Positions 2,865 through 16,971 of a DNA stretch of 64,000 nucleotides are shown here, piece by piece. The notes under the pieces are model-generated. The model was not told where the DNA came from. It worked only from the letters and a program-made list of their open reading frames with translations, and searched no databases. Origin of the DNA: Exiguobacterium sibiricum 7-3. GTDB taxonomy: Bacteria; Bacillota; Bacilli; Exiguobacteriales; Exiguobacteriaceae. Each line of letters begins with the position of its first letter. Positions within the stretch are counted from its first letter, which is position 1. A program made the translations under genes and the position numbers. Location of the stretch: positions 1,377,971 to 1,441,970 of the forward strand of contig NZ_KK211190.1 in NCBI RefSeq assembly GCF_000620865.1, read 5' to 3'.

Positions 2865-3821
2865 ATGATACGCTGTCTTCTAGTGACGAACGATCATCAA
2901 GTTTTAGTGGATGATGATTTGGAACGTCTTCACGCACCAAACGTCAGATGGTATTTTGTCGATTTTGATCAGCCGACGGAGCAGGAAAAACAACAGCTGG
3001 TGTCCGCATTTGATTTTCACCCGCTGGCCCTTGAAGATTGTTTTCAATACTTACAGCGTCCAAAGTTAGAATATTACGACGGATACAGCTTTTTTGTGTT
3101 GCATGCCCTGGATACGGAGTCACTAAAAGGAAAAGAAATTAACCTGTTCGCCAATGAGAACTATGTCGTTTCTTACCACGAGGAGCCTTCAAGTGAAATT
3201 GATGTCGTGTTCCAAGCTTTTCAACGGATACATAATAAACCCGAACAGTGGGCGATCGAGATCGTTCATAAAATCATGGATAAAATCGTCGATGGTTATT
3301 TTCCGATCGTCCATGCGTTAGAAGACAAGATTTTTGCACTGGAAGGACGGTATGAACAGCGGGGGAATGATAAACGGATCATGGAAGAGATATTTGAGAT
3401 TCGATCCGATTTGTTAGTAGTCGCCAGGACCATCTTGCCGATGCGGGATTTGTTGTACCGGGTCGTTGAATCCCGCCGGCTTGCGATTCACGCCAACAAA
3501 AAAGCGTTTTTCCAAGATATTTATGATCATCTACTTAAACTTAATGAAATGATTGAATATAACCGGGAGATGACGTCTGAATTCCGGGATAATTTCATTT
3601 CGCTCAACTCATATCGGATGAACAATATCATGAAGACGTTAACGATTTTCACGACCATTTTCATGCCTTTAACTTTCATCGCCGGAATCTATGGGATGAA
3701 TTTTGAACATATGCCGGAACTGACGACGCGATTCGGGTATTTCTTCACATTAGGAGGAATGGGAGTCATTGCGATGGGGATGATCCTGTATTTCAGAAAA
3801 AATCATTGGTTTGATGAGTAA
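2865..3821 (+). CDS. corA: CorA-family magnesium/divalent cation transporter
   Basis: A 318-residue member of the CorA family, which forms pentameric Mg2+ (or Co2+/Ni2+) channels in the cytoplasmic membrane. It has a long acidic cytoplasmic N-terminal domain, then two C-terminal transmembrane helices. The family's YGMN pore signature (AGIYGMNF) stands at the end of the first, and a short basic tail (FRKNHWFDE) closes the protein. Two ATGs are possible. AAGGTG is seven bases before ATG 2865 but only about two before ATG 2859, so 2865 is preferred. The LysR gene follows after 14 bases and may be co-transcribed. Confidence 0.92.
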   Translation: MIRCLLVTNDHQVLVDDDLERLHAPNVRWYFVDFDQPTEQEKQQLVSAFDFHPLALEDCFQYLQRPKLEYYDGYSFFVLHALDTESLKGKEINLFANENYVVSYHEEPSSEIDVVFQAFQRIHNKPEQWAIEIVHKIMDKIVDGYFPIVHALEDKIFALEGRYEQRGNDKRIMEEIFEIRSDLLVVARTILPMRDLLYRVVESRRLAIHANKKAFFQDIYDHLLKLNEMIEYNREMTSEFRDNFISLNSYRMNNIMKTLTIFTTIFMPLTFIAGIYGMNFEHMPELTTRFGYFFTLGGMGVIAMGMILYFRKNHWFDE

Positions 3822-3835
3822 GAGGGGGAAGTCGA

Positions 3836-4789
3836 GTGGACATTCGGCAATTGACATTTTTTACGACCATCGTAGATCATGCGTATAATCTAACACGGGC
3901 TTCCAAGTATCTTCATATTTCGCAACCGGCGCTCAGTCAACTGGTACGGGAATTTGAAGAGATGGAACAAGTGGAGTTGTTTTTGCGTCATCACGGACGA
4001 TTGACCGGTCTGACAGACGCCGGACAACAATTTTATGAGGATGCGCTGAGTGTCCTGCACGGACATCAACAAATGATGGAACATCTTCACGAACGGTCAC
4101 GTGTCATACGAGGGAAAGTCCGGTTGGGGATTCCACCGGTCATTTTGCCCGTCCTTTTTTCGCAACTGATTCCGAAATTAATGGCGGAACATCCCGGCAT
4201 TGAGCTGGAAATCATCGAAGAAGGAGCTTTTGAATTGAAGCGTCGCCTGCTGCTCGAAGAACTGGACTTGGCGATTTTAATTGAACCGGGAGAATCCTAT
4301 GGCATAGAACGCTATCGATTAATCGAGGATGAGGTCGTCGTCGCGGTGAGGCCAAGCCATCCGTTAAGCCAAACCAAAAGTGTATCTTACCGTGACCTGG
4401 CAGAGGAACCTTTGGTCATTCTCAATGATAGTTTCATGTTGCACCATCAGATTTTATCCCAGTTCCGGCATGTGCAAGTCGAACCACACATCTTTTTTAC
4501 TTCCGGTGCTTGGGACTTATTGATTGGGATGGTACAAGAACTCGACGTCGTGTCGATTTTACCAGAACCGATTCTCCGATTTCATCATGCAGAGGATATC
4601 CGGATTTTACCGTTTGACCCTCCGATGTTATGGGATGTTTCGTTAAATCATTTAGCAGGGGTCGAGCAACGTCCGCTCGTGCGTCACGTCCAGGACTATG
4701 TCTTACATTACTTTAAATCCTATTGGCCGCATCCATCCGATCGTGGCGCAAACATTAAAAAGAACCCGGACCAGCCACCTCTTTTGTAA
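3836..4789 (+). CDS. LysR-family transcriptional regulator
   Basis: A 317-residue LysR-type regulator. The N-terminal winged helix-turn-helix (MDIRQLTFFTTIV..RASKYLHISQPALSQLVREFE) is followed by the periplasmic-binding-protein-like effector domain from about residue 90. The start is GTG 3836 with GAGGGGGA upstream. It lies 14 bases after corA on the same strand, so the two may share a promoter, but no target is visible and neither neighbour is a classic LysR target. The last codons overlap the left arm of the following terminator. Confidence 0.88.
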   Translation: MDIRQLTFFTTIVDHAYNLTRASKYLHISQPALSQLVREFEEMEQVELFLRHHGRLTGLTDAGQQFYEDALSVLHGHQQMMEHLHERSRVIRGKVRLGIPPVILPVLFSQLIPKLMAEHPGIELEIIEEGAFELKRRLLLEELDLAILIEPGESYGIERYRLIEDEVVVAVRPSHPLSQTKSVSYRDLAEEPLVILNDSFMLHHQILSQFRHVQVEPHIFFTSGAWDLLIGMVQELDVVSILPEPILRFHHAEDIRILPFDPPMLWDVSLNHLAGVEQRPLVRHVQDYVLHYFKSYWPHPSDRGANIKKNPDQPPLL

Positions 4790-15689: not shown

Positions 15690-16403
15690 GTGGAAACTGC
15701 TCGGACGGCGTCAGTTTACGAACAAGTCTGTGTTATCCTGAAAAAAAGACAGAAACAAAAAAAGGACGTGACCCCCATCGAACGAATCGAAATGTCTATT
15801 CATCGCGGATTAGTGGAGTTAAAAAATTTGGATAAACGGATTCAAAAAGCACAGTCGAAATCGTTTATCGGTGTGCAGAACGGCAGTCAGGCGCCGGCAG
15901 GATATCCTTCAGTCGTGACGTTTGCGGAAGAAGCGAAAGCCAACCTGCAGTCGATTCGGGATTTGATGGAGCGGCGGAATCGGATCAAGTCTGCGATCAC
16001 GGCGTCGAATGCTGTGACGGTCGTCCGTATTAACGGTCGTGAGATGACCGTTGCGGAGGCGATTGACCGGCGGGATGCCGGGCTTGTCTATGAACGGCAA
16101 TTGTTGCAGACTTTACGGGAGCAACTGCGGCAAGTCGAACAGACCATCGAGACAGAGCGGCAAGATGTCGTACGGCGGGCAGACAGCCACATCGAGGCAA
16201 CGTACGGTTCCCGGGAAAAAGGGAATGCGGACGAGATGGAAAAATCACGTCGACTGTTCATCGAGCGCCTGGAGCCGAAATTGATTGATCCGTCGAACTT
16301 GCGCCAGGTCATCGCTGAACTTGATGAGACAATCGATACCTTTGAAACGGAAGTCGATTTTACATTGTCGGAAAGCAATACCGTAACGAAAATTTTTGCG
16401 TGA
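15690..16403 (+). CDS. coiled-coil protein of unknown function
   Basis: Up to 237 residues, mostly charged helix (KNLDKRIQKAQSK; LLQTLREQLRQVEQTIETERQDVVRRADSHIEATYG), so a coiled coil is likely. There is no signal peptide or membrane segment. I recognise no family, though the style recalls phage- or scaffold-type proteins. The start is unclear. GTG 15690 overlaps a weak AAGG. GTG 15768 lies too close to a good AAAGGA (15761-15766). ATG 15792 has no ribosome binding site. The conserved-looking part begins near 15780. It is divergent from the broken dehydrogenase. Confidence 0.6.
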   Translation: METARTASVYEQVCVILKKRQKQKKDVTPIERIEMSIHRGLVELKNLDKRIQKAQSKSFIGVQNGSQAPAGYPSVVTFAEEAKANLQSIRDLMERRNRIKSAITASNAVTVVRINGREMTVAEAIDRRDAGLVYERQLLQTLREQLRQVEQTIETERQDVVRRADSHIEATYGSREKGNADEMEKSRRLFIERLEPKLIDPSNLRQVIAELDETIDTFETEVDFTLSESNTVTKIFA

Positions 16404-16411
16404 TGACGATT

Positions 16412-16680
16412 CCCTGTTAGTCTGATATTCCTGTGACCAAACACGCCGGTTTTGTGCGATAACAAAACAATCCGTGCTTCGGCACCTCGCACCGGTTCCA
16501 TCGAGAACCGGAAGTGAAAGTTCAATGTTCACAGCTCAAGGAACAACGAACAAAGCTGAACGCTCAGAGCATGAAAGTTAAACCTTCAACGAGCAAAGAG
16601 TGATCAAATCCACGATTCAACGGGATAAGAGAGGATTTGTTTGCTGCCTCTGGGAGTACCGCGTGGCTGGGCTGACAGGG
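16412..16680 (+). ncRNA. candidate structured RNA, family not identified
   Basis: No gene reads through this stretch, but base pairing is dense. A long-range closing helix of 11 pairs joins CCCTGTTAGTC (16412-16422) and GGCTGACAGGG (16670-16680). A second layer joins CACGC (16442-16446) and GCGTG (16661-16665). Inside are hairpins GTTTTGT/ACAAAAC (16449-16468), GTGC-TTCG-GCAC with a UUCG tetraloop (16474-16485), CCGGTTC/GAACCGG (16492-16511) and CAAATCC/GGATTTG (16605-16639). It may be a free-standing RNA or the leader of the small membrane-protein gene at 16725. No T-box, 6S, RNase P, tmRNA or SRP motif was recognised. Confidence 0.45.
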
Positions 16681-16724
16681 AACCTACATAAAAAAACGTT
16701 GACCGGAGAGGATGGAGAGGTGTG

Positions 16725-16919
16725 TTGAATCTGTATTTGACTGTACTTGACATGCCGAACCTCGCGCTGGCATCATTTGTCATCGGACTCGTTTTGACCG
16801 TGAAGTACGGACGACTGTTCGTCCGGCGGGATATTCCGGGATCCGGTAAACGAATGGCGGCTGTCCTGTATACGGGCTGTCTGTTCGGTTTGAGCAGTAT
16901 CGTTCTGCTGTATATATGA
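16725..16919 (+). CDS. small two-helix membrane protein
   Basis: A 64-residue protein with two hydrophobic helices (roughly MPNLALASFVIGLVLTV and AAVLYTGCLFGLSSIVLLYI) joined by a basic loop (KYGRLFVRRDIPGSGKR). The best start is TTG 16725, seven bases after GGAG at 16714-16717; GTG 16722 is too close to GGAGAGG. Function unknown. It lies directly downstream of the candidate structured RNA and could be controlled by it. Confidence 0.55.
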   Translation: MNLYLTVLDMPNLALASFVIGLVLTVKYGRLFVRRDIPGSGKRMAAVLYTGCLFGLSSIVLLYI

Positions 16920-16921
16920 CG

Positions 16922-16971
16922 AATGAACCTTTTTTGAACGGAGTCATCCGTTTCAAAGAAGGTTTTTTTGG
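16922..16971 (+). terminator. rho-independent terminator
   Basis: A long imperfect stem (AACCTTTTTTGAACGGA / TCCGTTTCAAAGAAGGTT) is followed by a T run. Confidence 0.8.

Follow-up and report, generated by a model that had tools for sequence, protein, structure and literature searches.

A structured RNA with a heptad array linked to the PHROG 1491 protein family in Bacilli and phages

Described RNAs and the Exiguobacterium locus

Proteins that form RNA rings of the TRAP type have many equal subunits, which read evenly spaced short motifs at intervals of about 5 nt. The RNA described here, which we call the heptad RNA, may work in a comparable way; it differs from that arrangement in that its motifs are spaced by 7 nt, the protein linked to it is unrelated, and the array of motifs is enclosed in a folded RNA. 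Two phage RNAs whose function is unknown, GOLLD and ROOL, often lie near tRNA islands, and the linker of GOLLD sometimes holds tRNAs (PMC12286853); according to the same source no protein partner is identified for ROOL, whereas the heptad RNA travels with a gene of the family PHROG 1491. RAGATH-18 is the guide RNA of TnpB (IS607), a role that was revealed by its link to an upstream gene (PMC11061315). Its partner is an RNA-guided nuclease, whereas that of the heptad RNA is a coiled-coil protein in which no nuclease domain was recognised. As regards membership of the TnpB/IscB guide RNAs, no TnpB or IscB gene adjoins the heptad RNA and the linked gene is that of PHROG 1491.

The window, by which we mean the whole 64,000-nucleotide stretch of Exiguobacterium sibiricum 7-3 DNA that was analysed, has no Rfam match at gathering thresholds, including GOLLD, ROOL, OLE, raiA, tmRNA, tRNA, T-box, 6S, SRP, RNase P, and introns, in line with the original prediction, which had matched the element to no known family. 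GOLLD, ROOL, OLE, and raiA were also absent at gathering from 40 relatives scanned. Six weak matches, mostly to eukaryotic families, were obtained in 16380–16760 at E values up to 10 and were set aside. The stretch GGGAGUACCGCG near the 3' end resembles the T-box motif; a T-box reading of it was rejected because Rfam returned no such match. The sole Rfam family to overlap the heptad RNA, embedded tRNAs aside, is RAGATH-27 (RF03100, 86 nt), which was found in two of the 40 loci scanned: L082 (3668–3753, 88.0 bits) and L133 (3649–3734, 92.9 bits; gathering threshold 76.1). In these two loci it covers the 5' domain of the heptad RNA, comprising the 5' strand of the closing helix P1, the sequence GAAAAC, one strand of a long-range pseudoknot, and an H-type pseudoknot; the 86-nt model includes neither the heptads nor the 3' core. 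The window is unmatched by RAGATH-27 at gathering, and 16380–16760 is unmatched at E values up to 10. On the basis of these sequence matches RAGATH-27 appears to be a fragment of the heptad RNA family, and this orphan motif would thereby gain a partner and its full extent. Searches of open-licence PMC text found no account of the function of DIP1984 or DUF6847 (see below), or of PHROG 1491, T5.085, RAGATH-27, or heptanucleotide phage RNAs.

Extent and fold of the RNA

The structured RNA occupies positions 16410–16682 of the window on the plus strand, as do all features given below, and comprises about 270 bases from P1 to P1, with its first base 6 nt past the stop codon of the upstream gene. 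An 11-pair closing helix with limits at 16412 and 16680, a second helix inside it, and a location without a gene had been predicted, and all three are borne out. The closing helix is slightly longer, with 15 pairs including G-U between 16410–16424 and 16668–16682, as supported by covariation and by strand comparison, so that the predicted limits were nearly exact; the inner helix is P3, and only short or opposite-strand open reading frames cross the stretch. From 5' to 3', the elements are P1, a pseudoknot strand, the H-type pseudoknot, a variable stretch with hairpins, the heptads, and a 3' domain that consists of P3, P4, and P5. The pseudoknot strand CAAACA (16438–16443) pairs with UGUUUG (16638–16643) inside the loop of P5. 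It is followed by the H-type pseudoknot of the 5' domain (16444–16468), in which CGC (16444–16446) pairs with GCG (16456–16458) and GUUUUGU (16449–16455) with ACAAAAC (16462–16468). The UUCG-capped hairpin (16474–16485) and the further stems of the original prediction are present, but the loop sequence of this hairpin varies even inside Exiguobacterium; a second hairpin, CCGGUUC/GAACCGG (16492–16511), lies in the variable insert region. The heptad array, with the consensus AAAGNUY, extends over 16517–16605 and has 12 units as counted with an HMM. A conserved AAAU (16606–16609) then precedes P3, in which CCACG (16610–16614) pairs with CGUGG (16662–16666) with support from covariation, and a conserved CUG follows the 3' strand. 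P4 (16621–16623 with 16659–16661) has weak support, and the P5 hairpin AGAGG/CCUCU (16630–16651), the loop of which bears the pseudoknot strand, is supported by covariation. The long-range pseudoknot and the 7-nt array were absent from the original prediction. Over 87 loci the length of the RNA is about 237–480 nt with a median of about 319. A scan of the window locus for promoters and terminators found one of each, as compared with 1.6 and 1.7 expected, which is not above chance.

The arrangement had been judged to be far beyond chance. At -85.1 kcal/mol none of 200 shuffles was as good, but the z of -2.85 is modest and the opposite strand also folds (z -2.03, with 7 of 200 shuffles as good). 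Folding energy was rejected as proof of an RNA because it is weak and present on both strands. Covariation in other Exiguobacterium genomes, a check that the original prediction had named, proved thin, with two-sided change at four of 64 predicted pairs and a covariation term of +0.75 kcal/mol (six sequences, RNAalifold), whereas divergent relatives gave a clear result that bears out the predicted folded noncoding RNA. In an alignment of 20 such relatives (A11; of 29 loci considered, 25 passed on length and P1 score, 21 were aligned, and L151 was removed for a long insert), 30 pairs of P1, P3, P5, and the long-range pseudoknot were tested; 90.5% of the cells are paired and 27 of the 30 pairs show two-sided change. 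The covariation score is 0.709, as compared with 0.224 (sd 0.017) for shuffles and 0.08–0.15 for slid partners, and all five covariation measures beat 500 of 500 shuffles, a null that ignores kinship. The long-range pseudoknot is paired in 84.2% of cells in these relatives, with both-sided change at all six of its pairs.

A larger alignment (A9) comprises 102 loci, that is, all but two of the 104 kept from 137 at less than 75% identity. P3, the pairing of which was a condition of entry, is paired in 99.6% of cells here, and as many as four Watson-Crick types occur at a position; P4 (68.6%) and P5 (60.7%) are weaker. The proportion of paired cells, the two-sided cells, and the covariation score exceed those of shuffles (0 of 500 as high), whereas the number of pairs with two-sided change and the further pair types do not (113 and 223 of 500). 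The counts for P1 and P3 lean towards themselves, since a paired P3 was a condition of the first parse of the loci and a P1 score was one for A11; P5 and the long-range pseudoknot played no part in the choice of loci. When strands were exchanged between loci, the mean P1 score fell from 25.8 for own strands to 13.4. The long-range pseudoknot is weak in wide windows, where 18% of 104 loci lie above the 95th percentile. With windows anchored on P1 and P3, in the 87 loci that remain when 17 of the 104 that lack a P1 stem of score 18 are removed, its own strands have a mean of 14.5, as compared with 9.7, 37% of loci lie above that percentile, and none of 10000 permutations was as good as the own strands. 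In 66% of the same 87 loci the H-type pseudoknot scores above the 95th percentile of shuffles.

The linked protein and the heptad array

The gene upstream of the RNA (15792–16403) encodes a coiled-coil protein of 203 residues with two SN-A-T motifs, its start at the ATG at 15792 being assigned from homologues. The protein belongs to PHROG 1491 (E 1.3e-61, profile positions 5–207 of 211); no Pfam, NCBIfam, or PADLOC family was matched at the cut-offs used, and domain searches found no recognised RNA-binding, nuclease, or transposase domain. The predicted structure (mean pLDDT 93, pTM 0.71) comprises long helices and a β-hairpin. Its closest fold among solved structures is 3kdq from Corynebacterium diphtheriae (DUF6847, PF20935), the protein that we take to be named DIP1984, which ranks first in both structure comparisons, with a Foldseek probability of 1.00 and E 0.04–0.05 and, by VIA, Z 10.5 and rmsd 5.9 over 149 aligned residues, a Z range that helical bundles also reach through arrangement alone. 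By sequence, the partner protein gives no row for PF20935 at E values up to 1 (Pfam threshold 27 bits), and DUF6847 has no match in its own genome. Two giant-virus proteins of about 560 residues in BFVD, A0A5B8IDQ8 and A0A5K0U6K5, also match the fold (E 2e-3 and 6e-3, probability 1.00, TMq 0.69 and 0.57). DUF6847 genes in Bacilli, like those of PHROG 1491, precede a conserved RNA-like stretch, but its sequence and layout differ. Behind the PF20935 genes of L215–L221 and L227–L234 this stretch measures about 200 nt and, by eye, has T-arm-like hairpins in several cases and a GGGGC...GCCC pairing in most. No Rfam match was obtained in L215–L226. The label "tail fiber protein" attached to PHROG 1491 is probably a propagated misannotation; we doubt it because the gene also stands alone in chromosomes. 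The RNA does not figure in the PHROG 1491 annotation.

By BLAST the stretch is present in 7 of 61 genomes, its own included, all within the genus, and its own genome has one true copy, the eight other matches having E 1.9 or worse. A covariance model (R1) built from six of the genus sequences matched strongly in 9 of the 38 genomes of the family, and gave matches in other Bacilli from 57 down to 19 bits. Three weak matches in the family genomes (L024–L026, 13.0–13.8 bits, E 0.47–0.67) were taken as chance, as was a partial match at 19.1 bits (L030), which precedes a reading frame that by eye resembles ribosomal protein S7; the locus L031 is genuine despite a score of 19.2 bits. Apart from L030, the relatives found with R1 that were inspected have the same gene upstream and differing genes downstream. 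The nine family genomes with the RNA are also those, and the only ones among the 38, that have the PHROG 1491 gene at full strength; two partial gene matches (E 6e-5 and 7e-5) are in genomes that also hold the full gene.

A tblastn search with the relative from L028 matched 702 phage records, not deduplicated, and 11 plasmids; the protein also has matches in many chromosomes. The phage records are named after Salmonella or Escherichia in 422 of the 702 cases and otherwise after Pseudomonas, Vibrio, Klebsiella, Erwinia, and Lactococcus, with Brevibacillus and Clostridioides phages among the matches listed; the gene in Tequintavirus DT57C is a homologue of T5.085. In nine phage regions (L032–L039 and L043) and three plasmid regions, the gene is followed by some hundred gene-free bases in which the RNA is readable; short reading frames in a few of the 12 and tRNAs in one are the exceptions. 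Further relatives were taken from viral contigs (best 80 of 203) and genome contigs (80 of 116). Removal of 25 duplicates from 182 downstream stretches left 157, of which 141 fit the parse AAA[TC]C, P3, C[TA][GA], as compared with 3.05 (sd 1.5) for mononucleotide shuffles. Four parsed loci (L064, L070, L075, and L080) were set aside as doubtful; all four hold the RNA, the parse of L075 being at the wrong place.

A second model, R2, was derived from 20 sequences. Of the 156 loci besides the window, 154, among them 19 sources of the model, have an R2 match on the strand of the gene with an E value of at most 0.01; an antisense match in L175 (E 0.0014) was set aside. When the nine loci that came from RNA searches (L015, L017, L018, L020, L022, L027, L028, L029, and L031) are left out, 145 of 147 distinct loci fetched by protein have the RNA; it follows the gene at a distance of up to about 600 nt in 143 of these and lies 1–2 kb downstream in L073 and L076. 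The two below the cut-off are L038 (11.1 bits, E 0.056), which nevertheless passes the P3 parse, and L181 (10.6 bits, E 0.08), which is at best a remnant. Among 398 Bacilli genomes, the RNA is found at E < 1e-20 in 25, three of which are sources of R2, and the gene at E < 1e-50 in 24, all within the 25. In the odd one out, G094 (L263), the RNA is complete (102.6 bits) and adjoins no PHROG 1491 gene; it may represent an orphan RNA or a recent loss of the gene. In all, 40 of the 398 genomes match R2 at E 0.01. Of the 15 below the strong group, five were inspected by eye (L264–L268): four are tandem or irregular repeats, and L268 is a probable coding sequence. L264 (G177) and L266 (G074) contain near-perfect tandem heptad arrays of AAAGCTC and AAAAGCT without the RNA core.

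The period of the array was apparent in 83 loci, where self-similarity at lags of 7, 14, and 21 is 0.519, 0.483, and 0.450, as compared with about 0.37–0.39 at most other lags; the top lag is 7 in 49 loci and 14 in 17. Unguided alignments show invariant A columns spaced by 7 nt, and a cyclic model gives the heptad as A A A/N G N U Y with a median of 11 units per RNA (7–14 at the 5th and 95th percentiles). The array sits upstream of the AAAUC that leads into P3. Its median fold z of -0.50 was rejected as proof of single-strandedness because the proven core (-0.74) and control stretches (-0.34) score alike, and in the genus-only alignment RNAalifold pairs part of the array. A likeness of the heptads to the tRNA T-loop, limited to UUCAAAG, was dropped because the base ahead of the conserved U is variable.

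Divergent relatives of the PHROG 1491 protein (E 1e-16 to 2e-19; L284–L288, from five genomes, two of them near-identical) precede heptads of a different sequence, AGUGYUY. Per 130 nt, the four independent loci on which this exchange rests have 3.50 AGUGNUY and 0.25 AAAGNUY heptads, as compared with 0.04 and 2.89 in the 104 loci. The RNA of the divergent subgroup keeps a similar context of AAAAUCC or AAAACCC and P3. These genomes have no R2 match at E 0.01; in a smaller search L285 matched at E 6e-6 and L284 and L286–L288 gave none at E 1. A change of the array along with the protein is what would be predicted if the protein reads the array. A 7-nt period in other letters was also seen downstream of six DUF6847-like genes (L223–L226, L236, and L237), with 0.50 at lag 7 as compared with about 0.39, whereas behind twelve DUF6847 genes proper lag 7 is not raised (0.40 versus 0.36–0.40).

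A candidate ribonucleoprotein and alternative explanations

We regard it as close to certain that the RNA is real and widespread and that it is coupled to one protein family. We consider it probable, judging from sequence comparison, that the PHROG 1491 protein and a trans-acting RNA form a two-part ribonucleoprotein in which the protein binds the heptads. By sequence, a folded frame of P1, P3, P5, and the long-range pseudoknot, with the H-type pseudoknot also supported, surrounds an array of about 11 heptads. The array would be mostly unpaired, and several copies of the protein may be bound on it, one per heptad; the frame would then close a necklace or ring of protein on the RNA, and this particle would be the working form. 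Covariation, the co-inheritance of gene and RNA, the 7-nt period, and the difference in heptad between protein subgroups favour the ribonucleoprotein; it is weakened by the lack of a recognised RNA-binding domain, by the RNA of G094 without its gene, and by the weak RNAs of L181 and L038. Action in trans is supported by the RNAs of L073 and L076, 1–2 kb from the gene, and by that of G094.

Of 61 distinct viral loci, 31 have a tRNA no more than 1 kb from the RNA; the corresponding raw counts are 3 of 9 for phage records, 1 of 3 for plasmids, and 8 of 83 for chromosomal loci. In 5 of 156 loci (L078, L115, L128, L130, and L158) ARAGORN predicts a tRNA, or two of them, between the 5' domain and the heptads, a count from which the tRNA row of L073 was left out because its RNA lies further on. 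Because phage copies are often near tRNA genes and a few have a tRNA inside the RNA, we would guess, with low confidence, that the particle acts on tRNA or translation in conflicts between phage and host. By eye only, L214, L038, and L181 resemble the tRNA-bearing loci. In L032, from Brevibacillus phage Jenst, a skipping-rope RNA stands between the gene and the heptad RNA and a BsrG match lies behind (3625–3702, 4160–4434).

More tentatively, and at somewhat less than even chances, the complex may belong to a new class of ribonucleoproteins in which DUF6847-like coiled coils bind with one protomer per 7 nt within a two-pseudoknot frame, forming a ring of defined size; the heptad code would change with the protein (AAAGNUY, AGUGYUY, and other 7-nt periods), and phages would use such particles to handle or shield tRNAs. 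If the ribonucleoprotein reading is correct, an RNA–protein machine is common to large phages, T5-like phages among them, and many Bacilli, and the combination of a 7-nt repeat and a coiled-coil protein that fits it represents a new mode of sequence-periodic RNA recognition. Such a machine could have escaped notice because of the doubtful label of the protein and the position of the RNA in unannotated gaps.

The alternative that survives best, which we nevertheless regard as unlikely, is an autoregulatory 3' UTR, in which the protein would regulate its own production by binding to the end of its mRNA, with no further task for the RNA. In its favour, P1 begins at a median distance of 13 nt, counted from the first base of the stop codon (87 loci), and the gene and RNA are co-inherited; however, the RNAs of L073 and L076 lie far from the gene and that of G094 has none, five loci hold tRNAs inside the RNA, and an RNA with two pseudoknots and a median length of about 319 nt is more elaborate than one would expect of an operator.

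It is improbable that the RNA forms a particle by itself, in the manner of GOLLD or ROOL, with the protein a neighbour that has its own task. The setting is similar, since those phage RNAs often lie near tRNA islands and GOLLD sometimes has tRNAs in its linker (PMC12286853), but the tight linkage to one protein family, the variation of the heptads with protein subgroup, and the lack of Rfam matches to GOLLD, ROOL, and OLE in the window and 40 relatives argue against it. A tRNA mimic resembling tmRNA or a bacterial Y RNA is more doubtful still: some relatives have a tRNA in the insert region, and the RNA-like stretches behind DUF6847 genes have T-arm-like hairpins in several cases, as judged by eye, but the window has no tRNA or tmRNA match at gathering and a tRNA was located inside the RNA by ARAGORN in just 5 of 156 loci.

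A mobile-element or guide RNA (a miniature transposon, a TnpB-type omega RNA, or an intron) is hardly credible, since its complementary ends and the shared naming series of RAGATH-27 and RAGATH-18, the latter a TnpB guide RNA (PMC11061315), are outweighed by the single true copy in the genome (other eight matches E 1.9 or worse), a linked protein without a nuclease or transposase domain, compensatory changes in the ends, and the lack of an Rfam intron match in the window. Equally little is left of a cis-acting reading, in which the element is a long leader, as the original prediction had proposed, or a riboswitch for a membrane protein of 64 residues encoded downstream (16722–16919). This reading frame, which starts 40 nt past P1, is preserved in several loci of Exiguobacterium, but it is not a conserved neighbour of the RNA: relatives found by RNA search share the gene upstream, whereas the one downstream differs, and a terminator-like site occurs within 110 nt past the RNA in 46 of 104 loci as compared with 3 in shuffles. 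At L023, a divergent locus of Exiguobacterium, the next reading frame is RDD-like, and no such membrane protein is found among reading frames of at least 60 codons. Behind the 64-residue frame of the window, a hairpin followed by a run of T (16920–16970) looks like a terminator by eye, at a site absent from the list given by the terminator scan.
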